NCBI GenBank assembly: GCA_903934285.1
Contig: CAIZNN010000181.1
Coordinates: forward strand, 48,765 to 112,764
Reading direction: 5' to 3'
Source: Akkermansiaceae bacterium
Lineage (GTDB): Bacteria > Verrucomicrobiota > Verrucomicrobiia > Verrucomicrobiales > Akkermansiaceae
Length of the DNA stretch: 64,000 nt
Shown piece by piece: positions 120 through 20,295 of the stretch (position 1 is the first letter of the stretch; every line of letters starts with the position of its first letter). Made by a program: the position numbers and the translations under genes. The notes under the pieces are model-generated. The model did not search any database. It was not told the origin of the DNA and worked only from the letters and a program-made list of their open reading frames with translations.

Positions 120-1106
120 TCACTCCACCGATTCCTCCACGATGCTGGACAAAACGGTGTCCTCCAGCAGCACGGAACTGTTGGATTCCTGGGCGATGAA
201 ATATAGCGGGCGGCTGCGCACTTCGCCCAGAATGGTGCCGACATATTCGCTGAGCACGGCGAGAATCAAACAGACAAAGAAAAACATGCCGCTGAGTTGG
301 AGCGAGAGCGTCGTCCAGCCCGCGGCGACATCAGGTTTGAGCAGGAAAATGACCACCACGTATGCGGCATACAACAGATTGAGAAAAGCACCTAACAACC
401 CCGTGGCGGTCACCATGCGCAGCGGGTGGCGGGTGTTGGCGGCGAGCAGATCGATGGCGGTGGCAACCTCCACACCCCAGGTGGTGACGCGCGGCGCGCC
501 GGCCCTGGCCTGGATCGCGTATGAGAAGAACTCATGTTGATAGCCGAGGGTGAGGGTGAGCACGCGAAGGTAGCGGCTTTGCTCGCGAACTTGGAGCAAG
601 GCGTTGACCGCCTGCCGGTTCATCACCCGCAGGTCGCACACGCCGCGCTTGATGTCCACACCCAGATGCTTGACGCAGTAGGTCCGGAATGCGTTGCCGA
701 ACCACTCGCGCGCGAGCGAACGCCTCAGCGGATTGGTCGCCACCCCGTGGACGATCCCGCCGCTGTTACGGCAGAGATCTATCATCTGTGGGATGACCTC
801 GATCGGATCGGTCCGCGGGTCGAGGGTCACCACAAAATCGCCGATGGCGGACTCGATGCCGGCGGACAGGGCGACATCCCTGCCAAACGGCCTGGACAGC
901 CGCAGGTAACGCACGCGCTGGATTCGCTGCAGCAGGGGTTGCACCATCGCCGCAGTGCCATCGGTCGAACCGTCATCCACGAGGATGATTTCAAAAAAGC
1001 GGTAGGCCGAGGCGATAATCCGCTCGACCTCGATGACAATTTCCTCAAGCAGCAGGGCATCCTGCTCAAGCGGAACGACAATGCTGATTACGGTGTTCGG
1101 GTCCAT
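120..1106 (-). CDS. Glycosyltransferase family 2 with C-terminal membrane segments (DPM1/GtrB-like)
   Basis: SIVVPLEQD..ILVDDGSTDGT and LDPRTDPIEVIPQMI motifs, two hydrophobic C-terminal helices. Confidence 0.85.
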   Translation of the reverse strand: MDPNTVISIVVPLEQDALLLEEIVIEVERIIASAYRFFEIILVDDGSTDGTAAMVQPLLQRIQRVRYLRLSRPFGRDVALSAGIESAIGDFVVTLDPRTDPIEVIPQMIDLCRNSGGIVHGVATNPLRRSLAREWFGNAFRTYCVKHLGVDIKRGVCDLRVMNRQAVNALLQVREQSRYLRVLTLTLGYQHEFFSYAIQARAGAPRVTTWGVEVATAIDLLAANTRHPLRMVTATGLLGAFLNLLYAAYVVVIFLLKPDVAAGWTTLSLQLSGMFFFVCLILAVLSEYVGTILGEVRSRPLYFIAQESNSSVLLEDTVLSSIVEESVE

Positions 1107-1202
1107 TGGGAGAAAATGCTGGAATGCGGGAAAGTTGGCATGCTGGAATTGGTGATGTTTGGAGCGGAAGCCGACTGGAATTCCAGCGGCGCAGCATTTC
1201 AG

Positions 1203-2321
1203 TTAGCGGCTGGTTCCCAGCAACCGCGCCACTTCATCTTCCACGTCGAAGATATTGTCGATTTTCCCACCCATGACGTGAATGACGGCGGGAAGCTTCG
1301 CGTCGCGGTGAAACAGGATCGGCCTGCCGTCGTCGATTTCACTCAGCGGCAGCAGGGTTTTGACGGTCCACAACGAGTCGCGGTGCACCGCCCCCCGCAA
1401 CGACGGCACATAGCGCGAGGCATCGGCCACCATCAACTCGAAATGGCTTTGCTTATCGAGGGACTTGAATATCCGATAGGGATTGGAGGCGCCGGTTTGC
1501 TCGTTTTCAAACCAATGGGCATGCGGCGTGTAGCGCACATGGCTGAGGGTGGTCAGGCCCAGCGAGGGAAATGGCATGAAGGAGAAGAACGGCCCGCACA
1601 TCATGGTCACCGAGAGCCCGTCGAGGTTTTGCGGCAGCTCGACCAATGCCATTTCGGTCAGTTCGTGCTTCAAGGGAATGAGCGGCAAGCCTGAGGCGGA
1701 AGTGAGGCGATTCAAACCGGCGTAGGTGGCGTTGAACAGATATGCGCAGGGGCATTCGGAACCGTCCGAAAACCTGGCCAGCGCCCCGCTTGGATGGGGT
1801 GTCGCGGTTTGCACCAAGGTGTTAAGTCGCACCTCGATTCCCGCCGCCGCCAATTCCCGCTGCAGCTTGTCCCTGAGCACCGAAAAATCAAACGCGCATT
1901 CCTGCGCCAGCCAAATCCGCTCAGTCAACACCGGGTTGAACAGGCGCTGGATGGCGCTCGGCGCGGCCTTGAGCGGCGCGCCCACCCGCTTCATGAAAAC
2001 TTCGAACTGGTTGGCGGTGACCTTGGAGAAGAGCCGCCCGATGGCATAGACTTTGGTGAATTGATCGACGATCGCGTCGCGGTAATGCAAGCGGAACCTT
2101 TCGTAGTTCTGCCGCGACCGGTACGCCGTCATCAGACTGCGCGGGTAGTGATACCCGCCATGGACCCGGGCTTGGTTGATCCGTGATGCCTGGGTCAACA
2201 GTTCGCCCGCCTCCTCCACCACTATCGGCTGCCAACCCCTGCGCTGCAGCATCATGGCTATGGAGCAACCGAAGAAGCCGCCACCGGCGATGACCACACG
2301 GCGCTTTTCAGCATTACCCAT
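1203..2321 (-). CDS. FAD-dependent oxidoreductase (DAO-like)
   Basis: N-terminal Rossmann motif VVIAGGGFFGCSIAMMLQRRGW; overlaps the next gene by 8 bp. Confidence 0.8.
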   Translation of the reverse strand: MGNAEKRRVVIAGGGFFGCSIAMMLQRRGWQPIVVEEAGELLTQASRINQARVHGGYHYPRSLMTAYRSRQNYERFRLHYRDAIVDQFTKVYAIGRLFSKVTANQFEVFMKRVGAPLKAAPSAIQRLFNPVLTERIWLAQECAFDFSVLRDKLQRELAAAGIEVRLNTLVQTATPHPSGALARFSDGSECPCAYLFNATYAGLNRLTSASGLPLIPLKHELTEMALVELPQNLDGLSVTMMCGPFFSFMPFPSLGLTTLSHVRYTPHAHWFENEQTGASNPYRIFKSLDKQSHFELMVADASRYVPSLRGAVHRDSLWTVKTLLPLSEIDDGRPILFHRDAKLPAVIHVMGGKIDNIFDVEDEVARLLGTSR

Positions 2322-3120
2322 AACTCCCCCTAACTGCCGCCACTGCCTGTTTTATCGCATCAAGCCCGGCCGGTTGGGCCCGCATTTCGATGGCCACGCT
2401 GCCGGTGTAGCCGATTTCATGGAGCACGGCGGCGATGCGGGCATGGACCGCATCCGGTTCGGCAAAGGACCCGAGGTGGGGTTGACTGGCATGCACGTGG
2501 CGCAGCAGATGGGCACTTTGGCGCAAGCACGGTTCGAAGATCTCGCCGCTCAAGGCCAGCCCCCCGGCATCGACATGCAAACCGAAGCCCGGGGAATTGA
2601 CGGATTCGACCAACTCGGCGGCTTGTTCGAGCCGCGTGCAGAAATCGGCGCCATAGGCTTCCGGATTTGCTTCGATCACCAAACAGGACCCTGCCGCCAT
2701 GCACGCATCGCCCACTTCGCGAAACACCGCTGTGGCCCGCCGCGTGGCTTCGGCGTGGCTGAGGCAACCCCGCAACCGGTTGCGTGGCGAACCAAACACC
2801 AGCGGCCCTGCTCCTGCCCAACCGGCAACGCGCCCGACGGCTATCAGCACGGACTTCATCCGCTCGCACGACTCTGGCGCACCGAACAATTCCAACCCCT
2901 CGGTCCCGAACAACAGCGCCTGGAACGATCCGATCTTGAACCCCTGTTGGCGATACCATGCCGCACGCTCACGCACTGCGGACTCGCCCGCCGCCAGCGG
3001 ATCCCCGAACGCACGCAACGGCGCGACCTCGATTTCATCCAGACCCAAACCATGGAGGCATTCCAAGGCCGAGGCCTCGTCCTCCGGTGCCCATGCTATA
3101 TGCGAAAACGAAATGTTCAT
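2314..3120 (-). CDS. Sugar phosphate isomerase/epimerase (AP endonuclease-2-like TIM barrel)
   Basis: LVIEANPEAYGADFCTRLEQAAELVESV...LHVDAGGLALSGE pattern. Confidence 0.75.
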   Translation of the reverse strand: MNISFSHIAWAPEDEASALECLHGLGLDEIEVAPLRAFGDPLAAGESAVRERAAWYRQQGFKIGSFQALLFGTEGLELFGAPESCERMKSVLIAVGRVAGWAGAGPLVFGSPRNRLRGCLSHAEATRRATAVFREVGDACMAAGSCLVIEANPEAYGADFCTRLEQAAELVESVNSPGFGLHVDAGGLALSGEIFEPCLRQSAHLLRHVHASQPHLGSFAEPDAVHARIAAVLHEIGYTGSVAIEMRAQPAGLDAIKQAVAAVRGSYG

Positions 3121-3147
3121 GATGAGAAAATCTGTATGCTCCGGGAG

Positions 3148-3999
3148 CTAAGGCCGGGCCGGCCTATCCGCCCCGGATTCCTCCAACCACGATGCAAGAT
3201 CGGCAAACACCTGCGCCTTGCCATACAAATAGCCGTTCGCACCGCCCCACTCCGGCGCATGTCGCGAACGCATGTCATAGCCCGCCGGTGCCGGGCCTGT
3301 GCCACCCAGTGTTTTGCCCGGGAAAAACCGCTCGCAAATCTCGCCGGTGCCCAGCGGTTCGGTACTCACGTTGAGCAAGGGCAGCCCAAGCTCCCATGCC
3401 CGGTCGATGTCAGCCGCCAGATGCCGCAAATCATAATACTGAAACACCCCTTCCGGATGCACCTTCTCTAACCCATTGTCGTGGATCATGTCGAAGATGA
3501 CGTTTTTCTTGAGTCCCGGGCCGAACAGCCCGGGCAAACGCAGGATCAAAACCTCGGGAAAGCGGTCCCGGATCCAATCCTCCAACTCGACCCGGTGTAA
3601 CCCGTAGGCATGATGGCCGGCCCGCTCAATGGCGGAGTCCTCATCCACCTCCCGCGGTGCCGGATAGACATCGATGGTCGAGATCAGGGTGAAGCGCTTG
3701 GCTCGGACTTGGGAGAGTGGTTCCCGCAACCGCGCGATGCCGGCCCGGTCATCGGCGGGATGGAGATTGGCCCACCACTTCATCGCCTGCACTCCCGCAC
3801 ATACTATGTGCCCGAAGCTTTCACCCCGAATCGTGTCGATGTCCGAAGAGCGGTACTTCGAATCGTAAGCGCGCCGGGCGAGCAGATTGCTGCCGACGAA
3901 ACCGGTGTAGCCAATGAGTGCCGTGGACATGGGGATGTGGGGATATGGGGTTGTGGCGGGGCCGAATTCCACGGTCACTCGCTCAGCTTGCAGATTCAT
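3148..3999 (-). CDS. NAD-dependent epimerase/dehydratase-like protein
   Basis: ALIGYTGFVGSNLL Rossmann motif; 4-bp overlap with the upstream gene. Confidence 0.7.
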   Translation of the reverse strand: MNLQAERVTVEFGPATTPYPHIPMSTALIGYTGFVGSNLLARRAYDSKYRSSDIDTIRGESFGHIVCAGVQAMKWWANLHPADDRAGIARLREPLSQVRAKRFTLISTIDVYPAPREVDEDSAIERAGHHAYGLHRVELEDWIRDRFPEVLILRLPGLFGPGLKKNVIFDMIHDNGLEKVHPEGVFQYYDLRHLAADIDRAWELGLPLLNVSTEPLGTGEICERFFPGKTLGGTGPAPAGYDMRSRHAPEWGGANGYLYGKAQVFADLASWLEESGADRPARP

Positions 4000-4688
4000 G
4001 TTTCGATGACTTCGCCCGCCAGCTCGGGCTTGGCCGGCTTGACCCGCGCACGCAACAAGCGAACCAGAACAAAGGCGGCCACCAGCACCGCGATGCCGGT
4101 GATGGCCATGCCGAACCGACCTTCGAAAACGGCACCGCTGGTAAGGACGAAACCGACGACAAACACCCCATTGATGGGCACCGAGATAAGGATGTAGGGC
4201 AGGAACGGCACCGCCACCAGACCGAGAACGTAATTTTGCAGGAACAACGGCACTCCCGGAGTCACGCGCAGCAGCACGGTGAGTCTGATGCGGTCCTTAT
4301 GTTCCAGACTGCGCCAGCGGTCCCAATGCCGCCCTAACAGCCGAGCGACCAGCGGGCGCGCCGGACCCGCCGCCACCAGATAGGTCCATGTCATGTTCAG
4401 GAACATGGCGCAAACACTCAGCGCGCAACTCTGCCAATTGCTGCCCCAGGTCACGCCCGCGAGCACCAGCAAGGCACTGGCTGGACAGCCGAACGCCGGC
4501 AGCACCACCAGCGCGGCAAACAGCACGATCGGATAGGTGCGGCACCATTCAATAACCTGGTCTTTGGCGTGCCACAGCGTGCTGAGGAAATCCGGCCCGC
4601 GGCTGAGCCACAGCACCCCCGCGATTCCCGCGCCCGCCAGCAGAGACGCCAAACCCCAGCGGATTTTGGGGGACAGAGTGTGGAACAT
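3996..4688 (-). CDS. TVP38/TMEM64 (VTT/DedA-like) membrane protein
   Basis: Multiple TM segments; FGCPASALLVLAGVTWG and RVTPGVPLFLQNYVLGLVAVPFLPYILIS typical of VTT proteins. Confidence 0.8.
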   Translation of the reverse strand: MFHTLSPKIRWGLASLLAGAGIAGVLWLSRGPDFLSTLWHAKDQVIEWCRTYPIVLFAALVVLPAFGCPASALLVLAGVTWGSNWQSCALSVCAMFLNMTWTYLVAAGPARPLVARLLGRHWDRWRSLEHKDRIRLTVLLRVTPGVPLFLQNYVLGLVAVPFLPYILISVPINGVFVVGFVLTSGAVFEGRFGMAITGIAVLVAAFVLVRLLRARVKPAKPELAGEVIET

Positions 4689-4779: not shown

Positions 4780-6096
4780 TCAGGCTTTGACCACTTGCCC
4801 GGGCTGGGTGGCCACGCTGGCCATCGCGTTGCGCGTATCAATGATGAGCCCGGCGTGGGCAGCGAGCAGCGGCAAGTCAAAAGCCGCATGGTGGGTGGCA
4901 ATGACCACGCAATCCGCGGCGGCGAGCGTCGCCGGAGTGCACGCCACCGAGCAGGTGCCTGCCCAGTTCTGGTGCTCGCGGGTCGGCCCGATCACCGGCA
5001 CATGCGGGTCGTGATAGGTGACCTCGGCCCCAAGCTCGCTGAAGCGGTCTAACAGGGCGAAGGTGGGCGATTCGCGCATGTCATCAACGTTGGCCTTGTA
5101 GGCCAGTCCCATGAGCAGGATGCGACTGCCCTTGACCGCCTTGCCACGGCAATTGAGGGCCTCCATGGTGCGTTGGACGACATATTCGGGCATCGCCCGG
5201 TTGATCTCCCCGGCCAATTCGATGAAGCGGGTGTGCACCCCAAACTCGCGCGCTTTCCACGTCAGATAGAACGGATCAATCGGGATGCAATGCCCGCCAA
5301 GTCCCGGCCCCGGATAGAACGGCGTGAAGCCGAAGGGCTTGGTCGATGCCGCCCGGATGACCTCCCAAATATCGATGCCCATGCGGTCGGCGGCTATTTT
5401 CAATTCATTGATGAGGCCGATGTTGACCGAGCGATAGATGTTTTCCAACAATTTGGAAAGCTCGGCCACTTGGGTCGAGGAAACCGGCACGACCCGCTCG
5501 AAGGCCGCGCCATACAGCGCAGTGCCGGCTTGCAGGCAGGCCGCGGTGTGGCCGCCAACCACTTTGGGAATATTGGTCGCGGCAAACTGCGGATTGCCGG
5601 GATCCTCGCGCTCCGGCGAATACACGACGAATATGGCGTCGCCCACTTTGAAGCCGGCCGCCTCGACTCGGGTGACGACCTCTTCCTCGGTGGTGCCAGG
5701 ATAGGTGGTGCTTTCCAAACTCAGGATTTGGCCGGCCCGCAGGTGCGGCACCACCGTGTCCAGCGTCGCGGTGACGAAACTCAGATCCGGCTCGAGATGC
5801 TCATCAAGCGGGGTGGGCACGCACAAGATGATGGCGTCGCAGCTACCGATGCGGGAAAAATCGCTGGTGGCATCGAGTTTGCCGGAGCCGCGCGCCGCCG
5901 CTACCTGCGCGCTTGGAATGTGTTTGATATAACTCGTCCCGGCGTGCAGGTGCTCGATTTTCGTGCTGTCGATATCGAAACCAATCACCGCAAACCCCTT
6001 GTCGGCATAGGCAAGCACCAGCGGCAGTCCGACGTAGCCGAGCCCGACGACGCCGATAACAGAGGATTGTGGTTGGATACAGACGGGTTCGGACAT
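4780..6096 (-). CDS. Nucleotide sugar dehydrogenase (UDP-GlcNAc/UDP-HexNAc 6-dehydrogenase, WbpA-like)
   Basis: [50 protein letters not shown] motifs. Confidence 0.9.
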
Positions 6097-6124: not shown

Positions 6125-6145
6125 ACGCTACCGCCCTTGGTCGCT
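6125..6145 (-). promoter_or_regulatory. ops/JUMPstart-like antiterminator element, copy 2 (AGCGACCAAGGGCGGTAGCGT, followed by TTTT)
   Basis: Identical 21-mer to 13848-13868; core GGCGGTAGCGT; 28 nt upstream of the nucleotide-sugar dehydrogenase start; preceded by possible hairpin CGCCAG-GA-CTGGCG. Confidence 0.7.
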
Positions 6146-6277
6146 TGCGCCAGTCCTGGCGGAAAACCTGAGGGATCAATCGGGAAAATTTGCCACCGCA
6201 GCGCCCATCCGGATCACTGCCACGTCAAACTGACACGAATTCCCGCCTGTTCAATAAAAAATGAACAAAAAAACCCC

Positions 6278-7522
6278 TCACACAATCATCCCGGCGGCGA
6301 CCGTTTCGTTGGTGGCGGGATCGATGAGGATGAACGAGCCGGTTTGCCGGTTGCGGCGGTAGGAATCGTAGAACAACGGGACCGCCGCCCGCAGACAGAC
6401 GCGACCGATGTCGTTCATCGCAAACCCATCGACGTCCTCGATTTTGTGGAGCGTGTTGATATCGACGTGATACCGGACCTGTTGGACCACGGCCTTGGTT
6501 TCCTGGGTGGTGTGGCGGAGGATGAACTTGGCGCGCGGCGGCATGGCGCGGGGGGAAAACCAGCACACCATCGCCTCGATGTCCTGGCCGACCTGCGGCG
6601 GATTGTTGGCCTTGACCAGCATGTCGCCGCGGGAAATGTCGATTTCGTCGGTGAGGGTGAGGCACACCGATTGCGGCGCGAACGCTTCACTGAGCTCCCC
6701 CTTGGGGCTATGGATGGCCTTGACGCGGGTGGTGAAACCGGACGGCAGCACCGTGACGGCGTCCCCGGGTTTGAAGACCCCACCCGCGACGCGGCCAGCG
6801 TAGCCGCGGAAATCATGCCACTCGTCGCTCATCGGGCGCACCACCCATTGGACCGGGAAGCGCGCCTCGACGTGGTTCTCCTCACCGGCAACATAGACGT
6901 TCTCCAGATGATAGAGCAGGGTCGGCCCCTCATACCACCCCATGTTTGCGGATTTTTCGACGACATTGTCGCCATTGAGCGCCGAAATGGGAATGAAGAC
7001 GATTTCGACAATGTTATCCAGGCGCGAGGCAAACTCACGAAACTCCTCGATAATCCGATGGTACCCGGCCTCGCTGAAGCCAACCAGATCCATCTTATTG
7101 ACGGCGACGACGAGGTGCTGGATGCGCAACAAATTGGCGATGAAGCAGTGCCGCTTGGTCTGCTCGATGACGCCTTTGCGGGCGTCGATGAGAATGATGG
7201 CGAGATTGGCCGTGGAGGCGCCGGTCACCATGTTGCGGGTATATTGGATATGCCCCGGCGTGTCGGCGATGATGAATTTGCGTTTCGGGGTGGCAAAATA
7301 GCGATAGGCGACGTCGATGGTGATCCCCTGTTCGCGCTCGGCCTTGAGACCGTCGGTGAGCAACGCCAGGTTGACGTTGGCGTCGCCGCGCCGCCGCGAC
7401 GATTCCTCCATGGCCTCAAGTTGATCCTCGAAAATGGACTTGGAGTCGTAAAGCAAGCGCCCTATCAGGGTGGATTTGCCGTCGTCAACCGAACCGGCGG
7501 TGGTGAAGCGGAGGAGGTCCAT
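6278..7522 (-). CDS. cysN: Sulfate adenylyltransferase subunit 1 (GTPase)
   Basis: AGSVDDGKSTLIGRLLYDSK, DTPGHIQYTRNMVTGAS, NKMD GTPase motifs. Confidence 0.95.
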   Translation of the reverse strand: MDLLRFTTAGSVDDGKSTLIGRLLYDSKSIFEDQLEAMEESSRRRGDANVNLALLTDGLKAEREQGITIDVAYRYFATPKRKFIIADTPGHIQYTRNMVTGASTANLAIILIDARKGVIEQTKRHCFIANLLRIQHLVVAVNKMDLVGFSEAGYHRIIEEFREFASRLDNIVEIVFIPISALNGDNVVEKSANMGWYEGPTLLYHLENVYVAGEENHVEARFPVQWVVRPMSDEWHDFRGYAGRVAGGVFKPGDAVTVLPSGFTTRVKAIHSPKGELSEAFAPQSVCLTLTDEIDISRGDMLVKANNPPQVGQDIEAMVCWFSPRAMPPRAKFILRHTTQETKAVVQQVRYHVDINTLHKIEDVDGFAMNDIGRVCLRAAVPLFYDSYRRNRQTGSFILIDPATNETVAAGMIV

Positions 7523-7530
7523 GGGTGAGT

Positions 7531-8466
7531 CTAAAAGTAACCTTCTTTCTTCCGGTCTTCCATCGCGGTTTCGGAGCGCTTGTCGTCGGAGCGGGTGCCG
7601 CGTTCGGTTTGCCGCGCGGCGGCCACCTCGGCGATGACTTCGTCGAGATTGGAAGCTGTGGATTCAACCGCCCCGGTGCAGGTGGCATCGCCAATGGTCC
7701 GGAAGCGCACCACCCGCGAGGCGGCGGTTTCGTGGCTCTGGGGTTTGAGGAATTCAGTGACCGCCAGCAGCATGCCGTTGCGTTGGAAAACCTCGCGGTT
7801 ATGGGCAAAGTAAATCGATGGCAGCGGGATCTCCTCACGTTTCATATACATCCATATATCCATCTCGGTGAAGTTGGAGAGCGGGAAGATGCGGAAGTGC
7901 TCACCGGGATTTTTGCGACCGTTGAACAAGTTCCAGAGTTCCGGGCGCTGGTTTTTCGGATCCCACTGGCCGAAATCATCCCGATGCGAGAAAAACCGCT
8001 CTTTGGCGCGGGCCTTTTCCTCGTCGCGGCGCCCGCCGCCCAGGCACGCATCATATTGGTGTTGCTCGATGGTATCGAGCAAGGTGACGGTTTGCAGTTT
8101 GTTGCGCGAGGCACCCGGCCCGGTCTCTTCGACCACCCGCCCCCGATCTATCGACTCCTGCACCGATCCGACAATCAGTCGGGCCGCCAGCAGCACGACA
8201 AATTCGTCGCGATACGCCATGGTCTCAGCAAAATTGTGCCCAGTATCAACGTGCACCAGCGGAAAAGGCATGCGCGCCGGCCAAAACGCTTTGCGCGCCA
8301 GCCATGCCATCACAATCGAGTCCTTGCCCCCCGAAAACAACAGCGCTGGTTTCTCAAATTGCGCGGCTGCCTCCCGAAGCACGAAAATCGCTTCGGCTTC
8401 AAGTTGGTCAAGGTGACTGAATCGGTAATTGGACATGGGGCGTGGGGCAACCAGCAGGAGGGGCAC
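7531..8466 (-). CDS. cysD: Sulfate adenylyltransferase subunit 2
   Basis: LFSGGKDSIVMAWLARKAFWP PP-loop, LVHVDTGHNFAE, GGGRRDEEKARAKERFFS. Confidence 0.95.
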   Translation of the reverse strand: MPLLLVAPRPMSNYRFSHLDQLEAEAIFVLREAAAQFEKPALLFSGGKDSIVMAWLARKAFWPARMPFPLVHVDTGHNFAETMAYRDEFVVLLAARLIVGSVQESIDRGRVVEETGPGASRNKLQTVTLLDTIEQHQYDACLGGGRRDEEKARAKERFFSHRDDFGQWDPKNQRPELWNLFNGRKNPGEHFRIFPLSNFTEMDIWMYMKREEIPLPSIYFAHNREVFQRNGMLLAVTEFLKPQSHETAASRVVRFRTIGDATCTGAVESTASNLDEVIAEVAAARQTERGTRSDDKRSETAMEDRKKEGYF

Positions 8467-8580
8467 TGCGACCGCAGTTGGCTAACCACGGCGCCGCCCA
8501 AACTAGGGCCCCGCTGCGCTCCCGTCAAGAAATAATAGGTTTGTAGATCAGTTTAATATAGTATACTGATTCACAACGAG

Positions 8581-9180
8581 TTACAACTCCGGATTGATGG
8601 AAATCCGGTCGGTGATGGCTTCGAGGAGCTCAAACGCGGCGTCCTGCACCGAGGAGGTCTCGGTATTGAGGACGAGCGCGGGGTTTTGCGGAGGCTCGAA
8701 CGACCCGTCCTTGCCGGTGAAATGCGCGATCTCGCCCCGGGCCGCCTTGGCGTAGAGACCTTTCACGTCACGCTTTTCGCAAGTGGCATAGGACGCTTCG
8801 ACGTAGACCTCGAACAAATCCGCGCCGAGCAGACCGCGCACCAAGTCGCGGAGTTCGCCGCGCGGGGTGATGGCAGAGACAAAGGTGATGATCCCCTGCG
8901 ACACAAACAATTTAGCCGTCTCGGCAATCCGGCGGATGTTTTCCAGCCGGTCCTCGTCGCTGAACCCCAGGTTTGAATTCAGCCCGCTACGCAGGTTGTC
9001 GCCATCCAGAATAACGGTGACGCGACCTTGCTGGTACAAAACGCGCTCCGCGGCATTGGCGATGGTCGACTTGCCGGACCCGGACAGCCCACAAAGCCAT
9101 ACCACAATGCCACGCTGGCGCAGCAGCACCTGCTTGTCGTGGCGATTGAGGAAGCGGTGGAACTCAGGGTGGATGTTCAT
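8581..9180 (-). CDS. cysC: Adenylylsulfate kinase
   Basis: WLCGLSGSGKSTIANA P-loop, LDGDNLRSGLNSNLGFSDEDRLENIRR, DVKGLYAKAARGEI. Confidence 0.95.
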   Translation of the reverse strand: MNIHPEFHRFLNRHDKQVLLRQRGIVVWLCGLSGSGKSTIANAAERVLYQQGRVTVILDGDNLRSGLNSNLGFSDEDRLENIRRIAETAKLFVSQGIITFVSAITPRGELRDLVRGLLGADLFEVYVEASYATCEKRDVKGLYAKAARGEIAHFTGKDGSFEPPQNPALVLNTETSSVQDAAFELLEAITDRISINPEL

Positions 9181-9275
9181 AAGAAAATCGGAAGAGAGAG
9201 TGGATGCTCTGAATGGCGCAAGGACGGAAGCTCCGAATGGCCGCAGCAGCTGCTGTCGGGGAGTGGGTGGGACGT

Positions 9276-10067
9276 TCAGACGTTGCGACTTTCAGACCCT
9301 CCAACCCGCCGCAACATATCACGAAAAACGTGATAGAGAAAGAGGCAATTGTAAGTTAAGTAACGCCGGAACAGCCGCCGGGGCTCCATGCAGAGCCGGT
9401 AGAGCCATTCCAGCCCCAGCCGCTGCACGAGCGCCGGAGCCTGGTTGACTTCGCCGGCGTGAAACGCGAAGGCCGCCCCAATCGCAAAGTAAACCCCGGG
9501 AGGCAGGCGCTCCTTGTGCCTGGCGATCCATTGCTCCTGCCGCGGGCAGCCGAGCCCAACCCAGATCAGATTGGCGTCGGCCGCGCGGATTCGTTGGCAA
9601 ATCCGCTCAAACTCGTCCGCTGGCCAGTCGCCAAAAGGCGGCGCATAGGTGCCGCCAATGACGGCACCCGGAAAGCGTGACGCAAAAACTGCCGTGAGCT
9701 TGCTCAGCGTGGCCGGTTTCCCGCCTAACAAAAAATGCCGCAACTCCCCCACCCCGGCGCTGGCTTTGAGTACTTCCAGCATCAAGCTGGGACCGTACAC
9801 GCGGTCGCGGAGTTTCTCCGCCGCCGCCAGACGCGAGTTGACCGCCCACAGCAAGGGCATGCCGTCGGGACAAATCAGATCAAAGCGCTCCATGGCTTGA
9901 CCAAAGGCAACATCCGTGCGCGCCAGCGCGGCCACATGGGTATTGGCGGCTGCCACCGCATAGGCGCGCTCACCCGTCCCGGCGCGCTCAATCGCCCATG
10001 CCACCGCGCCCGCGTAATCGGTCGCAGCAATCGGCAAGCCAATGACTGGAATGGTTCGCATACCCAT
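9276..10067 (-). CDS. WecG/TagA/CpsF family glycosyltransferase
   Basis: AAANTHVAALARTD..LICPDGMPLLWAVN, IWVGLGCPRQEQWIARHKERLPPGVYFAIGAAFAFHAGEVNQAP; start moved to MGMRTIPVIG because the upstream 120 aa of the ORF overlap the next gene out of frame. Confidence 0.9.
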   Translation of the reverse strand: MGMRTIPVIGLPIAATDYAGAVAWAIERAGTGERAYAVAAANTHVAALARTDVAFGQAMERFDLICPDGMPLLWAVNSRLAAAEKLRDRVYGPSLMLEVLKASAGVGELRHFLLGGKPATLSKLTAVFASRFPGAVIGGTYAPPFGDWPADEFERICQRIRAADANLIWVGLGCPRQEQWIARHKERLPPGVYFAIGAAFAFHAGEVNQAPALVQRLGLEWLYRLCMEPRRLFRRYLTYNCLFLYHVFRDMLRRVGGSESRNV

Positions 10068-10161
10068 CAATTCGCCGGAATCCCGCGGGGCGGCACGCGC
10101 CCACTTATTTGCCCGCATGGGCGCTGCAGAGGTGCGGCGCACGGGCCGCGCACCAGCTGCC

Positions 10162-11244
10162 TCACACCCGGCAGAACGGTTCGACCGCGCGGAGATTGGC
10201 GTTGCCAGCCAGCGCCTGTGTCCGCAGCTCCGGCTCGTCAAACAGATAGAGCGCGTAGCCGCCGTGGCCCCCCCCACAATATTTGCAGGCAAGCGCTCCG
10301 GGCAGCGGCGGCAATGGTTCCATCCCCTCGTCAAGTTGGCTTTGATGATAGACCGACATCCCTTCAGCCAGACGCTGCCAATCGGCATGCAATGCCCCCT
10401 CCCGGGCAATGCGTGCCGACTCGGCAATCCGCCCGTAATCCCGCGGATGGTTCGCCACGCTGGGGGTGTCGTGAGGTTTGCCAGTCCACAGGATGGCCAG
10501 GCACCCTGTTAGAAAATCCCCGTTCCGCTTGAAGTCAAGCACCGGAGTGTTGCCGGAACGCCAGACACACAGGCCGGTCTCGCGAATCACCGCCGGATCC
10601 TGCCAGCCCACTCCCAGACCAAACTCCGAATCGACCCCATCACGACCGTTGAGCAGCGCCCACGCACCGCTGCCACCCAGGCCGGCCTGCTTCTCATAGG
10701 GCCATTCGCGCAGTGACACCAGCGGTGAAATGGCACAGTTGACGATGAACTCGCCTGGCCGCGCAAAACGCGGCACATCCAACCACCCACCGGCAAAATC
10801 GACGCGCAGCGGCGCCTCGGTGGGCGCCTGCACCCAGCGCACAATCGAACTGGTGGAAACCGGTTCAAACCGCGGCGGGGTCTTGGGCAGCACCGTGTAT
10901 TGAGCACCCACCCGGGCGCACAGCTCGCGCTTGACCTCGCCGTATTTGTCGTCCTCGGTGACGATGAGGAAATCCGGGCGAATGCGCAGGAAATCCTCCG
11001 CGAAATCCAATCCTTCCTGGTGCCCCTGGGTGACAATCACCTCGTCGATCATACGCAGGCCCATCAGCAGGGCGCGCTTGTGATCATCGGGAATCGACGG
11101 CTTGCGGCGCTTGTGGTGCCACAGCACCTCGGCGGAGGCAAACGAGACAATCAGATAATCCCCCAACGCCCGCGCCTCTTCAAAAAACTGCAGGTGGCCG
11201 GCGTGGAGGATGTCGTAACATCCTGAAACAAATACTTTTTTCAT
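10162..11244 (-). CDS. Bifunctional cytidylyltransferase (TagD/RfaE-C-like) - GHMP kinase fusion
   Basis: N-term VFVSGCYDILHAGHLQFFEEARALGDYLIV (HxGH nucleotidyltransferase); C-term APLRVDFAGGWLDVPRF, GLGGSGAWALL, KYCGGGHGGYALYLF (GHMP kinase-like motifs). Confidence 0.85.
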   Translation of the reverse strand: MKKVFVSGCYDILHAGHLQFFEEARALGDYLIVSFASAEVLWHHKRRKPSIPDDHKRALLMGLRMIDEVIVTQGHQEGLDFAEDFLRIRPDFLIVTEDDKYGEVKRELCARVGAQYTVLPKTPPRFEPVSTSSIVRWVQAPTEAPLRVDFAGGWLDVPRFARPGEFIVNCAISPLVSLREWPYEKQAGLGGSGAWALLNGRDGVDSEFGLGVGWQDPAVIRETGLCVWRSGNTPVLDFKRNGDFLTGCLAILWTGKPHDTPSVANHPRDYGRIAESARIAREGALHADWQRLAEGMSVYHQSQLDEGMEPLPPLPGALACKYCGGGHGGYALYLFDEPELRTQALAGNANLRAVEPFCRV

Positions 11245-11294
11245 GTGGATTACTCTTGGGCTGCGATGAGCGCGGGAATTTCAGCAATTTGGAT

Positions 11295-12455
11295 TCAAGG
11301 GTGCAGCCAGTCCGCGATGGCGGCTATGACTTCGTCGCATTGGGCGGCGCTCAATTCCGGATAGACCGGAATGCTCAGCACCTCGCCGGTAAGGGATTCA
11401 GACACCGGACATGCCTGGATCGCGTGGGCCGGCAATTGCTTGAAACATGCCTGCTGATGGAGTGCCACCGGATAGTAAATCTCACAGCCAATGCCACGCG
11501 CCGTGAGGTGGCTCTTGAGCGCATCACGCCGGCCCGGCCCTGGCACCCGCAGCGTGAACTGATTCCAGACGTGCCCCCGGTCGGCCGCAGCCTGCGGCAG
11601 CACGATCCGCGCCGCCTCGCCGCCATCGCCGGCCAGCGCCTGGCCGACCCCGGGCAACCGCGACAACCGCGCGATGTAGTCCGTGGCGTTGGCGACCCGG
11701 CCGGCAGTATAGGCTCCAAGGTGCCGCAGCTTCACCCGCAACAGGGCGCACTGGAGTGCATCCATCCGGAAGTTGGCACCCACCGTCGCATGATAATAGC
11801 GCGGATGCATGCCATGATTGCGAATCCGCCGGAGTTGTTCCGCCACCTCCCCATCCTGCGTCGTGACCAATCCACCATCACCAAATCCTCCCAGATTCTT
11901 CGACGGGAAAAAACTGAAGCATCCCATCGCACCGAGCGTGCCGCAACCGCGGCCTTGATAGGTGGCGCCGATCGCTTGCGCCACATCCTCAATGACGCGC
12001 AGCCCGTGGGCCGCGGCAAAAGCGCCGAGGCCAGCCATGTCTGCCGCCTGGCCGAACAAATGCACCGGCACGATCGCTTTGGTCCGCGGCGTGAGACGGG
12101 CCGCCGCGGACTCGAGGTCAAGATTGAAGCTGACCGGGCAGACATCGCAAAACACCGGAATGGCCCCGGTCCGCGCAATGCACCCGGCGGTTGCGAAAAA
12201 CGTGAACGCCGGACATAGCACCTCATCCCCCGGCCCGATGCCAAGGGCCATGAAGGCCGCCAACAGCGCGTCGGTGCCCGATGACATCGACACCGCATGC
12301 CCGGCACCGATGACTGCCGCGCATTCCGCTTCAAACGCCTCCACTTCGTCGCCGAGTATGAAGCGCCCCGTGCGGAGCACTCGGCTGAAGGCCGCGGTGA
12401 GTTCCTCTTCCAGCGGGTGATTCTGGGCATTGACGTCAAGCAGTGGGACGGGCAT
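11295..12455 (-). CDS. DegT/DnrJ/EryC1/StrS family PLP-dependent sugar aminotransferase
   Basis: VPLLDVNAQNHPLEEEL, MSSGTDALLAAFMALGIGPGDEVLCPAFTFFATAG, CFSFFPSKNLGGFGDGG. Confidence 0.93.
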   Translation of the reverse strand: MPVPLLDVNAQNHPLEEELTAAFSRVLRTGRFILGDEVEAFEAECAAVIGAGHAVSMSSGTDALLAAFMALGIGPGDEVLCPAFTFFATAGCIARTGAIPVFCDVCPVSFNLDLESAAARLTPRTKAIVPVHLFGQAADMAGLGAFAAAHGLRVIEDVAQAIGATYQGRGCGTLGAMGCFSFFPSKNLGGFGDGGLVTTQDGEVAEQLRRIRNHGMHPRYYHATVGANFRMDALQCALLRVKLRHLGAYTAGRVANATDYIARLSRLPGVGQALAGDGGEAARIVLPQAAADRGHVWNQFTLRVPGPGRRDALKSHLTARGIGCEIYYPVALHQQACFKQLPAHAIQACPVSESLTGEVLSIPVYPELSAAQCDEVIAAIADWLHP

Positions 12456-12481
12456 GGGATGATCGATTGTTAGTTTGAATC

Positions 12482-13657
12482 TCAGGTGATTGGGCAACCA
12501 TAACGGAGCAGGAGCTTCTCGGCTTCGGCAAGGGCCATGCCGACTACCTGGTCCATGTTATAATAGCGGTAGCTCGCGAGGCGGCCCACAAAGCTCACAT
12601 TCGCTTCGCCAGCCGCCAGCTGGACGTAGCGCTGGTAGGCGGCGCGTGCGTCAGGCGCGGGAATCGGATAGTATGGCTCTTCTCCCCGCTGCCAATCCTT
12701 GGGGTATTCCCGCACGATGGTGGTGGCAGCCACTTGTTGTCCGGTGGCATGCTTGATCTCCACTATCCGGGTCAACGGCACCTCCGGTTCCGGGTAGTTC
12801 ACTTGCATCGCAGGCTGCCAAAACCCGGGCTTGCCCGCAATCGCCTCACGGCCCGCCAGTTGCCCGGGCGAAAATGATTCCGCCTCAAACCGCAACGAGC
12901 GATACGGCAAGGGACCATGCCTGTACGCGAAATATTCATCAACCGCTCCGGTGAACACCAGGTGCCTGCAACGCCAGCGTTGGCGCGCCTCCTGGAAATC
13001 CACCCCAAGATGAAGCTCCACCCCGCCGGACGCCGCCAGCATCCGCTCAAACAGCGCAGTGTATCCGTGCGCCGGCAGCGCTTGGAATTCTTCAGTTAGA
13101 TAGCGGTCGTCGCGATCAATCCGCAGCGGGATGCGGCCGCACACCGACACATCCAACTCGCGCGGATGCCGCCGCCATTGCTTGAGCGTGTAGCTCTCAA
13201 AAAACAGTTCGTAGAGCTCCCTGCCAACCTGCGAGATGATGACTTCCTCCGAATTGCGCGGGGCCGCAATCGGCACCCGCACCGCGGCTAACCACGCGGC
13301 GAATTCCCCGCTGTTTGACGGCCGCCCAAGATACTCCTCAAACGTGTTGAGATTAATCGGAAAGCTCCAATACCGCCCCCGGGCATAACTCTTGATCGTG
13401 TATGCCACCGCGTGCCACCCGGTAAACCGCGACAGGTACTCGACAATCCGCGCGGCATTGGTGCGGAAATAGTGCGGACCGTAGCGATGCACCAAAACCC
13501 CCGCGGCATCGGTTTCATCGTAGGCATTGCCACCAACATGCCCCCGCCGGTCCACCACCACGCAATGCCACCCCGCCGCGGCCAGCCGCTCGGCCATCAC
13601 ACAACCGGCAAACCCGGCGCCGATGATCAGAAAATCTGTGGAGGCGTCCGGTTGCAT
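12482..13657 (-). CDS. glf: UDP-galactopyranose mutase
   Basis: FLIIGAGFAGCVMAERLAAAGWHCVVVDRRGHVGGNAYDETDAAGVLVHRYGPHYFRT; YPVP-type C-terminal region YYNMDQVVGMAL. Confidence 0.95.
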   Translation of the reverse strand: MQPDASTDFLIIGAGFAGCVMAERLAAAGWHCVVVDRRGHVGGNAYDETDAAGVLVHRYGPHYFRTNAARIVEYLSRFTGWHAVAYTIKSYARGRYWSFPINLNTFEEYLGRPSNSGEFAAWLAAVRVPIAAPRNSEEVIISQVGRELYELFFESYTLKQWRRHPRELDVSVCGRIPLRIDRDDRYLTEEFQALPAHGYTALFERMLAASGGVELHLGVDFQEARQRWRCRHLVFTGAVDEYFAYRHGPLPYRSLRFEAESFSPGQLAGREAIAGKPGFWQPAMQVNYPEPEVPLTRIVEIKHATGQQVAATTIVREYPKDWQRGEEPYYPIPAPDARAAYQRYVQLAAGEANVSFVGRLASYRYYNMDQVVGMALAEAEKLLLRYGCPIT

Positions 13658-13847: not shown

Positions 13848-13868
13848 ACGCTACCGCCCTTGGTCGCT
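13848..13868 (-). promoter_or_regulatory. ops/JUMPstart-like antiterminator element, copy 1 (AGCGACCAAGGGCGGTAGCGT, continuing GC)
   Basis: Minus strand reads AGCGACCAAGGGCGGTAGCGTGC; GGCGGTAGCGTG is identical to the 12-nt E. coli ops core; lies in the leader between the RfaH/NusG-like gene and glf; identical 21-mer at 6125-6145. Confidence 0.75.
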
Positions 13869-14030
13869 CCTCCCGCTTCTTGGAGAAAACCTATCACTTG
13901 GGCTGGGTAATGTTTGGGCTGGCACCGTTTTGCTGTTCTCCCCCTACGGGGAATAGCTCACGGCCACTATCGGTTCAATCATAACAAAACATTTCACGAC
14001 GTTCGCATTGGCTGACTTGGGGCAGTCGCG

Positions 14031-14579
14031 TCAAGGCATCGGACGCCGCGGCAGCAGGATGGAAAACAGATCCATGTCAATCGCTTGCGGCTGCCCCAGA
14101 AAATCCATCAGGATCTTCACCCGTTCCGCTGCCGGCGCAATGCTCACCACCACCCCGCGCATGCCCGCCAGCGGACCGCTGGCCACTTCGACCTCATCGC
14201 CACACTCAATCGCCGGCGTGACGGTGAGGATTTCCTCGTCCGCGGTGGCATGACTGCGGATCTCCGCGCGCAACACCTCGACGAAGGACTCCGGCACCGA
14301 CGGAATCTCCGGCCCGAACCGCACCAGCCCACGCACGCCTTGGCAAAAGGTCACCGCCCGCTCGCTTTCCATTAGCTTGAACTTCGCCAACAGATAGCCC
14401 GGAAACAACGGCTCCAGCCACCATACCGTGCCTCGCCGCGTCGCCTTGCGATACCTCAAGCGCGGACAAAACACCTCGATGCCCTCCAGTTCGCGCAGAT
14501 GCTCGGCGGCTATGTGCTCCCGCTTCGTCTGGGTGCGCACGCAAAACCACGCCGCTTCGTTCATGTCAAATTCGTTCAT
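14031..14579 (-). CDS. NusG-paralog transcription antiterminator (RfaH/LoaP-like)
   Basis: WFCVRTQTKREHIAAEHLRE..IEVFCPRLRYRK..WWLEPLFPGYLLAKFKL (NGN) and GDEVEVASGPLAGMRGVVVSI..RVKILMDFLGQPQAIDMD (KOW); start overlaps the upstream stop (ATGA). Confidence 0.92.
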   Translation of the reverse strand: MNEFDMNEAAWFCVRTQTKREHIAAEHLRELEGIEVFCPRLRYRKATRRGTVWWLEPLFPGYLLAKFKLMESERAVTFCQGVRGLVRFGPEIPSVPESFVEVLRAEIRSHATADEEILTVTPAIECGDEVEVASGPLAGMRGVVVSIAPAAERVKILMDFLGQPQAIDMDLFSILLPRRPMP

Positions 14580-17767: not shown

Positions 17768-19072
17768 TCACCCGATGGCCCTGACCACCAATTGTCTGGC
17801 GCTGAACAAGCTGCCGTGAGCGTCTTCGCGCAAGGCCCGTGCTCCGCTCGTGCGTTGCGGCCCGAAATGCCCGCGATAGTGCTGAAACAGCCCATCCACA
17901 TACGATTTCGAGCCCAACACCAATCCATCTGAGAAATACCTCACCCGGCAGCGCAACAACGCGCCGCGGCTCAATTTCCCCAGCCGCTGCTTTTCTGCCG
18001 CCGATTCCTCATTTGAGAATCCCGCCTTCGTCCTTGCGCCGCCGGCTTGGGCGGTCGTCCGCAATTGGCCGTCCTCAAACAACCAGCAGCGATACACTTC
18101 CGCCGCGCTCATGCCTTTGGCCACGGCGGGGGTGTCCCACGCCGTCGCGCCGCGCTCGCCGTGGCCGGCCACCTGGCACAGCCCCAGGCGTGCCGCCTTG
18201 CCGCCGCCCATTGCTTCGCCGTAGCCGCACCACCGATAATCCTTCGGATCTTTGACCATGCCCGCGCGTACCGGGTTGAGGTCGATATAAGCTGCTATCG
18301 TCCGCAGCGCCTCGCCATCCTCCACCAGCACGCTCTTGAAGCGTTCCATCCACAGCGTGCCGCGCCGTCCCCGGTGCCTGTTGTACCAGCGTGAAAACCT
18401 CTCCTTCAGCTCCTTGACAAACACCGGCAGGTTGCACATCCGACGCAGATAGCCGGCGATGAGTGCCTCCGCATCCTCCGGCATCCCGCCTGTCCGCAGG
18501 TCCGCCAACTCTGCCCGCAGTGCTGCGATATAGGTCCGCGAATAGAGCAGGCGCAAGTGGTCGAGCAAGTGTTCCTCGCCGTCCGGGCCGGCAAATTGCG
18601 CCACGAACTCGTCGTGGGACGGCACCCGCGCCAGCACGTGAAAATGGTTGTCCATCATTGCGTAGGTGCGGATTTCCACCCCGGCAAAGCGTGCCAAGCG
18701 CCACATCAGGCGGCGCAGCGCTTCTTTCTCCGTGTCGCCGAGCAAGCGTTCGCCGCCCGCGGTGCGGCTCATGATGTGGTAGCTCGCCCCGTCCGCCGCA
18801 CCCAGCACGAGCCGCCGCCTCCGCCCCTTCCACCCGCGGGCGAACACCTGCCCGAGGCACGCCCCCGTCGGCAATTCAATCCGTGCCAGGGGCGAGAGCG
18901 TGCGTCGCGGCACCCCTGCATCCCCCACCGTCGCTTCCATTTCGTCATGTCCTGGCCCATCCCTCGACTCCCTCGACTCCCTCGACTCCCTCAACTCCCT
19001 CGACTCCCTCCCATTCCCTCCGCCGGCCAACCCGGATTCGACCATCGCACTCAACGTATTACACCCACGGCA
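17768..19072 (-). CDS. REP-associated tyrosine transposase (Y1/IS200-like RAYT); start uncertain
   Basis: IRTYAMMDNHFHVLARVP (HUH), LPVFVKELKERFSRWYNRHRGRRGTLWMERFKSVLVEDGEALRTIAAYIDLNPVRAGMVKDPKDYRWCGYGEAMGG. Confidence 0.85.
   Translation of the reverse strand, partial: CRGCNTLSAMVESGLAGGGNGRESRELRESRESRESRDGPGHDEMEATVGDAGVPRRTLSPLARIELPTGACLGQVFARGWKGRRRRLVLGAADGASYHIMSRTAGGERLLGDTEKEALRRLMWRLARFAGVEIRTYAMMDNHFHVLARVPSHDEFVAQFAGPDGEEHLLDHLRLLYSRTYIAALRAELADLRTGGMPEDAEALIAGYLRRMCNLPVFVKELKERFSRWYNRHRGRRGTLWMERFKSVLVEDGEALRTIAAYIDLNPVRAGMVKDPKDYRWCGYGEAMGGGKAARLGLCQVAGHGERGATAWDTPAVAKGMSAAEVYRCWLFEDGQLRTTAQAGGARTKAGFSNEESAAEKQRLGKLSRGALLRCRVRYFSDGLVLGSKSYVDGLFQHYRGHFGPQRTSGARALREDAHGSLFSARQLVVRAIG
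18962..19006. repeat. 9-bp tandem repeat (CCTCGACTC), 5 units
   Basis: Units at 18962, 18971, 18980, 18989 (variant CCTCAACTC), 18998; encodes RES repeats if the long RAYT N-terminus is translated. Confidence 0.9.
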
Positions 19073-19206
19073 CGGCAATTTCATAACACAACAAGAGCGG
19101 GTTTCGTCGAGCGAGTCAAGAACATAATGCCTGGCAGCATGTGCCTGGCCGCATATCGTTGAAATCTGAGTCTTGAAAGTGGGGGCTGGTTTTGCACACT
19201 CAGCGC

Positions 19207-20295
19207 ATGGCGAAGGTGATGGTGGGATTATCCGGCGGGGTTGACAGCGCGGTGGCGGCGGCACTGCTGGTGGAGCAGGGGCATGAGGTAGTCGCCGGCT
19301 ACATGAAGAATTGGATCAATGAGGAGGGGCTGCCTGGGGATTGCCCGTGGGAACAGGACATTGAAGACGCACGGGCAGTGGCCAAAACGTTGGGGATCGA
19401 GTTTCGAGTGATCGATTTGATCGGGGCCTATCGCGCGCGGATAGTCGACTATCTCATCGATGGCTACCGCGCGGGCATCACGCCCAATCCGGATGTGTGG
19501 TGCAATCGAGAAATGAAGTTTGGAGTGTTTCTGGATTACGCGCTGGCCCAAGGCTTCGAATTGGTGGCCACCGGTCATTACGTCCGCAAGCGCACCCTGA
19601 GTGACGGCACGGCGGTCATACTGCGGGGCGCCGATCCTAACAAGGATCAGAGCTATTTTCTGTCGCTGCTGACGCCACACCAGGCGAGACACGGGTTGTT
19701 TCCGAGCGGCGAAATGCTCAAGCCGCAAGTGCGGGAAACCGCGCGGCGCTTTGGGCTGGCGGTGGCAGAGAAGAAAGACAGCCAGGGGATTTGCTTTCTT
19801 GGGCAAGTGAAAATGAGTGATTTCTTACGCCACTATCTGCCGGATTCGGTCGGCGAGATTGTGGATACGACAGGGCGGGTGATGGGTGAGCACCGCGGCT
19901 TGCATCTCTATACCATCGGCCAACGCAAAGGACATGGGGTGGCCTCGCCGCGCGAGGGCATGGCGTATGTGGTGGTGGGCAAGAACCACGCCAAGAACCA
20001 ATTGGTCATCGGCTGGGACCGCGTGGATTCGCCGGGGCTATACGCGCAGCATTGCGTGATCGGCAGCATTTCGTCGCTAGCGGGGCCGTTGGAATCAAGA
20101 CAGCGGGTAGACGCCCAACCGCGCTACCGGTCGCGCGCGGAGAGCGCAACTGTGCAACCCCGCGACGGTGGCAAACTGGACCTGGTGTTCCGCAACCCGC
20201 AACGCGCCATCGCCCCCGGCCAAATCTGCGCGTTTTATGACGGCGGCCAACTCCTCGGCGGCGGCGTGTTTGAAGAGATCCTGGACCGGGAATAG
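19207..20295 (+). CDS. mnmA: tRNA-specific 2-thiouridylase MnmA
   Basis: VMVGLSGGVDSAVAAALL, TGHYVRK, DQSYFLSLL, DSQGICFLG, HRGLHLYTIGQRKGHGV. Confidence 0.95.
   Translation: MAKVMVGLSGGVDSAVAAALLVEQGHEVVAGYMKNWINEEGLPGDCPWEQDIEDARAVAKTLGIEFRVIDLIGAYRARIVDYLIDGYRAGITPNPDVWCNREMKFGVFLDYALAQGFELVATGHYVRKRTLSDGTAVILRGADPNKDQSYFLSLLTPHQARHGLFPSGEMLKPQVRETARRFGLAVAEKKDSQGICFLGQVKMSDFLRHYLPDSVGEIVDTTGRVMGEHRGLHLYTIGQRKGHGVASPREGMAYVVVGKNHAKNQLVIGWDRVDSPGLYAQHCVIGSISSLAGPLESRQRVDAQPRYRSRAESATVQPRDGGKLDLVFRNPQRAIAPGQICAFYDGGQLLGGGVFEEILDRE

Follow-up and report, generated by a model that had tools for sequence, protein, structure and literature searches.

A structured leader element resembling ops and JUMPstart accompanies a NusG paralog at surface-polysaccharide loci of Verrucomicrobiota

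A 21-mer that occurs twice in the 64-kb stretch of DNA analysed here (the window) is the 3' end of a conserved 46-nt element, which we interpret as a verrucomicrobial JUMPstart/ops element that probably pauses RNA polymerase and loads a NusG paralog for antitermination. We infer pausing, binding and antitermination from what was observed, namely conservation of sequence and structure, gene context, and co-occurrence and adjacency with the paralog. The relevant features of the window are as follows.

120..4688, minus strand: genes beyond the dehydrogenase (VTT-domain protein, epimerase-like, TIM-barrel, FAD oxidoreductase, glycosyltransferase 2)
4780..6096, minus strand: nucleotide-sugar (UDP-glucose/GDP-mannose type) dehydrogenase, headed by copy 1; Pfam PF03721/PF00984/PF03720, TIGR03026
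6125..6170, minus strand: element copy 1, complete 46-nt structured leader (CAGGTTTT CCGCCAGGACTGGCGCAAG CGACCAA GGGCGGTAGCGT); R1 62.5 bits, R2 58.3 bits
6125..6136, minus strand: ops/JUMPstart core GGGCGGTAGCGT of copy 1
6147..6162, minus strand: inner hairpin P2 of copy 1, CGCCAG-GA-CTGGCG, model columns 9-24
6278..12497, minus strand: genes between the elements (DegT-type aminotransferase, cytidylyltransferase-like, WecG/TagA glycosyltransferase, APS kinase, PAPS-reductase domain protein, CysN-like GTPase)
12482..13657, minus strand: UDP-galactopyranose mutase, first gene after copy 2; PF03275, TIGR00031 slightly under cut-off
13848..13893, minus strand: element copy 2, complete 46-nt structured leader, after the NusG paralog and before UDP-galactopyranose mutase; R1 62.5 bits
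14031..14579, minus strand: NusG paralog (NGN + KOW, 182 aa), proposed partner protein; stop codon 137 bp upstream of copy 2

AGCGACCAAGGGCGGTAGCGT was found exactly twice in the window, at 6125-6145 and 13848-13868 on the minus strand, and in none of the shuffled sequences even when three mismatches were allowed, so its occurrence is not due to chance. The preliminary description had reported the copy at 6125-6145 as a second identical 21-mer on the same strand, ending 28 nt before the ATG of the dehydrogenase, followed by TTTTT and preceded by a possible hairpin. All of this was borne out: TTTTT follows copy 1 only, copy 2 being continued by GCGTGG, and the hairpin is real and proves to be a key part of the element. 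The APS kinase, PAPS-reductase-domain and CysN-like genes lie within the polysaccharide operon at 6278-9180 and suggest that the polysaccharide is sulfated. Elsewhere in the window, an ORF at 17768-19264 resembles a REP-associated tyrosine transposase (Y1_Tnp; NF047646 below cut-off).

When class-wide matches were printed in register, the conserved unit began 25 bases further upstream than the 21-mer and comprised NNGGUUUU, a variable stretch, CGACCAAGGGCGG, one variable base and AGCGU. The 46-nt element can accordingly be written as NNGGUUUU, a variable hairpin and CGACCAAGGGCGGYAGCGU. Alignments made with MAFFT had ragged 5' ends and misplaced GGTTTT; gapless 46-mers were used instead, eight of which served to build model R1. 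The earlier view of an ops-like signal that is longer than E. coli ops and tied to polysaccharide operons and a NusG paralog is upheld by these data. The extension, described as lineage-specific, is indeed longer than ops, but it reaches beyond the nine upstream bases first noticed and forms a structured element of 46 nt that contains a covarying hairpin. The CCAAGG upstream of ops does not qualify as lineage-specific, because the layout of the 46-nt element matches that of JUMPstart.

The sequence of the inner hairpin, P2, varies while its pairing persists through compensatory change. Among 29 gapless sequences P2 covariation was 0.461 (0.125 in shuffles), with 56 double-change cells compared with 22.3 in shuffles, all five pairs varying on both sides and 86% of cells pairing; most of these sequences were aligned by a model already holding the structure, which favours structure. 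Sliding the partner by 1-3 columns reduced the covariation to 0.10-0.13. The first eight elements, found by core pattern alone and picked for equal length, show the same P2 signal, and thermodynamic folding of each variable stretch agrees with P2 (mean z -2.3). The putative outer helix P1, GGU/ACC, would lie directly 5' of GGGCGGUAGCGU; it is the weaker of the two and largely uninformative because it hardly varies. Its U-A pair is swapped for C-G in four elements of family f43, and in genus g50 of family f8 P1 is likewise UUGGC/GCCAA. The outermost P1 pairs, 1 and 2, were paired in 20/74 and 33/74 elements, which equals the chance expectation and leaves them unsupported.

The core is identical to E. 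coli ops. A 12-nt core of the GGCGGTAGCGTG type was present in all 74 distinct strong elements that we collected, with T6 mostly replaced by C (57/74) and with G4, G5, A7 and G8 invariant, in a set partly selected on the core itself. The core alone is not diagnostic, because a core-only genome search with GGGCGGYAGNRT returned 54 mostly chance matches versus 20 in the reversed control. We counted as strong those elements that reached a cut-off of 30 bits, a value of our own choosing; E-values of the covariance models are rough.

In the 4.8-Mb genome from which the window derives, each of the four strong copies stands at the head of polysaccharide genes; one further copy is atypical and C-rich. 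Dispersal in dozens of unrelated copies, the outcome that the preliminary description had named as fatal, was not seen: a genome-wide search at up to three mismatches returned four copies, all ahead of polysaccharide genes. Of the two copies outside the window, one (L003) heads a dTDP-glucose 4,6-dehydratase-like gene located after a Wzz/tyrosine-kinase-like gene, and the other (L004) heads an undecaprenyl-phosphate sugar transferase; these gene-family names come from sequence reading and a pooled Pfam scan. The flanks of the copies are unrelated to each other.

The collected strong elements all come from Verrucomicrobiota and mostly stand ahead of surface-polysaccharide genes. For the 65 with a readable next gene, this gene was again mostly of surface-polysaccharide type: epimerase/GDP-mannose dehydratase (11), UDP-galactopyranose mutase (10), bacterial sugar transferase (10), and otherwise dehydrogenases, ABC-2 exporters and nucleotidyltransferases. 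The next gene lay on the strand of the element in 54 of 62 tested cases, at a median gap of 75 bp; naive ORF calling is no proof of intergenic location, since antisense shadow ORFs are common in this GC-rich DNA. G263 represents a different genus of the window's family; there, UDP-galactopyranose mutase and a nucleotide-sugar dehydrogenase are each preceded by an element. These are the same two gene positions as in the window, and copy 1 has therefore been kept in evolution.

Further arrangements were noted at individual loci. A third element of the G263 cluster (C1:71293-71339; L268 13294-13340) stands ahead of small nucleotidyltransferase-like genes that by eye resemble an MNT/HEPN toxin-antitoxin pair. 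Contig JAFLEH010000015.1 carries three same-strand elements in about 3.2 kb (L070 7800, L128 1238 and 3037), one of them before a nucleotide-sugar dehydrogenase. A C-rich subgroup (L016, L119, L146, L150, L168, L179), which includes the own-genome C-rich copy (L016 1467-1512, that is C74:14535-14580), is not ahead of polysaccharide genes. In L119, L146 and L168 the C-rich element is oriented towards the 3' end of a gene resembling an integron integrase (L168 286-1683); in L116 an ordinary element is placed in the same way. The C-rich elements are possibly part of a recombination site.

In a 286-genome sample of the class, all 35 genomes with an element of at least 30 bits also carried the NusG paralog, which was present in 151 genomes overall. 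For this association p is about 2e-11 when genomes are counted and 7e-6 when genera are counted, values that ignore relatedness; many of the genomes are drafts. At 23 loci the element lies 27-183 bp after the stop codon of the paralog on the same strand, and low-scoring elements of other families are also found downstream of the paralog (G016, G237, G262). Many genomes carry the paralog without a strong element, and some of these have weak, divergent elements. Within f1, the family of the window, paralog and strong element are both absent from the sampled genomes of genus g2, which suggests their joint loss. Family f70, from a second class of the phylum, shows the same architecture, and three of seven loci there have the paralog upstream; in L250, L254 and L258 of this family the element is flanked by the NusG paralog on one side and by a glucosamine-fructose-6-phosphate aminotransferase-like gene on the other. 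As a control, 30 non-verrucomicrobial genomes containing the exact core yielded one match of at least 30 bits, within a Sphingomonas ORF.

The protein encoded at 14031-14579 qualifies as NusG-type (NGN and KOW domains). PF02357 (NGN) scored above its cut-off and KOW models under their curated cut-offs, and the fold matches RfaH and NusG structures. The preliminary description had called the transcription units RfaH-dependent. This goes too far, since the paralog shares only about 28% identity with E. coli RfaH, lacks K10 and R73, and falls below the cut-offs for RfaH (TIGR01955, 67.4 versus 144.5 bits; PRK09014, 52.3 versus 124), UpxY (NF033644, 62.2 versus 100) and LoaP (NF033641, 56.1 versus 125). 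We mapped residues across 43 paralogs together with E. coli RfaH and NusG. The RfaH DNA-contact residue K10 is Q in 36 of the 43 and R73 is Q in 22, while H20 is retained in 25. E48, an RfaH autoinhibition residue (PMC7593976), is invariant, as is R138, and F130 is replaced by V or I while E48 is kept. An AlphaFold2 model of the paralog (mean pLDDT 84) places a helix at 150-160, with KOW-region pLDDT of 61-79, too uncertain for a fold-switching call.

In the mechanism that we propose, RNA polymerase would transcribe the leader and the nascent RNA would fold into P2, enclosed by the short helix P1. The 3' edge of the hairpin would then lie 11 nt behind the end of GGGCGGYAGCGU, where the polymerase would pause. 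A spacing of 11 nt between helix and RNA 3' end is known for hairpin-stabilised pauses such as his, and the end of P1 would likewise be placed at 11 nt. The exposed non-template strand of the core would recruit the adjacently encoded NusG paralog, with or without help from the RNA hairpin, and the paralog would stay on the polymerase, carrying it past pauses and terminators through long surface-polysaccharide operons. Copy 2 would couple the paralog gene to the operon that it precedes, and copy 1 could act as a second loading point ahead of the dehydrogenase.

For E. coli ops, mutants have assigned G4, G5, A7 and G8 to RfaH recruitment and not to pausing (eLife 2018, PMC5995543). The invariance of these bases next to a variable T6 would fit a factor that is recruited through an altered pocket better than a signal for pausing only, bearing in mind that the elements were partly chosen by their core. 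In the paralogs Q mostly takes the place of K10 and R73, and most elements have C where ops has the flipped T6, so that the DNA contact cannot be an unchanged copy of that of RfaH. In E. coli, RfaH is believed to remain bound until the end (PMC7819879), which would favour a separate transcription unit at copy 1 over reloading. The division of the locus into two transcription units put forward in the preliminary description is nevertheless only possible, because all locus genes run in one direction and a consensus scan found no sigma-70-type promoter match in the 181-bp gap before the dehydrogenase; promoter and terminator consensus scans around the elements gave nothing useful.

The element resembles JUMPstart (RF01707) in ending in GGGCGGUAGCGU, in the putative helix of NUGGN/NCCAN form directly 5' of it and in its position in leaders of surface-polysaccharide operons. 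In contrast to JUMPstart, the verrucomicrobial helix encloses a second, covarying hairpin, T6 is usually C, and the regulator gene adjoins the element in 23 loci. Copy 1 reached 13.8 bits with RF01707, below the gathering threshold of 35; an Rfam scan of the window and 15 related loci gave this sub-threshold match only, with no JUMPstart at E<=1 in the 15. JUMPstart was listed for gamma-Proteobacteria by Weinberg 2010 (PMC2864571). With RfaH-ops of E. coli the system shares the 12-nt core, a NusG paralog with invariant E48 and R138, and a structural match to RfaH entries; it differs in its lack of conserved K10 and R73, in an H20 that only 25 of the 43 paralogs retain, and in that the paralog gene adjoins its target operon whereas RfaH is encoded alone. 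Recent horizontal transfer of RfaH and ops from Gammaproteobacteria would explain the identity of the core. We regard it as very improbable given the spread over many families of the class and a second class, the distinct hairpin architecture, the divergence of the paralog from RfaH and the failure of the JUMPstart model to detect the element. An old shared origin with the gammaproteobacterial system may be considered.

Antitermination by LoaP of Bacillus velezensis requires a small RNA hairpin in the target leader, to which LoaP binds (PMC12691694), and the LoaP/dfn system also has the NusG paralog gene beside its target. With this precedent the paralog might recognise the RNA hairpin, and GGGCGGYAGCGU would merely be a pause site; the strong covariation of the hairpin and the absence of RfaH base-contact residues speak for this. 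However, loop and stem of P2 vary freely, so that only GGUUUU and CGACCAA stand out as candidate sites for sequence-specific RNA recognition, and the core bases that in E. coli recruit rather than pause are invariant. Hairpin recognition of this kind appears unlikely to us. The LoaP/dfn system itself differs in that dfn is a UNCG-type hairpin not described with ops, and the paralog scores below the LoaP cut-off. Somewhat better placed, though still tentative, is a composite signal in which nascent RNA hairpin and ops-type non-template DNA jointly recruit a phylum-wide class of NusG paralogs, joining the RfaH and LoaP modes. The UpxY proteins of Bacteroides are also NusG paralogs encoded within polysaccharide loci, but they act on leaders upstream of their own gene (PMC7819879), whereas the verrucomicrobial element lies downstream of the paralog gene.

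A structured, conserved leader ahead of one functional gene class could also be a cis-acting RNA (a riboswitch or another protein's site, like the EAR/epsC RNA) or a simple pause or attenuator, inherited with the paralog by chance. The 35/35 co-occurrence, the repeated placement just downstream of the paralog gene and the identity of the core to ops make this improbable. An ordinary dispersed repeat would account for several copies per genome and for the C-rich subgroup beside integron-integrase-like genes, but it is contradicted by low copy number (four strong copies and one C-rich copy in the genome), unrelated flanks, the shared strand of the next gene and the compensatory changes, and we rejected it as exceedingly improbable.

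RfaH has been described as largely confined to Proteobacteria, and how NusG paralogs are recruited when their genes lie inside the operons they control was said to be unknown (PMC7593976). In the open PMC literature that we searched, no paper described ops, JUMPstart or recruitment of the RfaH type for Verrucomicrobiota. The loading system of E. coli relatives appears to exist, in modified form, in this distant phylum. The pair of paralog and element can be read from sequence across Verrucomicrobiota and comes with dozens of natural variants in the hairpin, core base 6 and the protein surface; target finding by operon-encoded NusG paralogs therefore becomes directly testable. Composite recruitment, if true, would give the JUMPstart stem-loop a natural function. 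With the covariance model, operons for surface polysaccharides can be flagged in a phylum that has received little study, and the findings suggest that the ops/JUMPstart solution is older, or has been invented more often, than thought.
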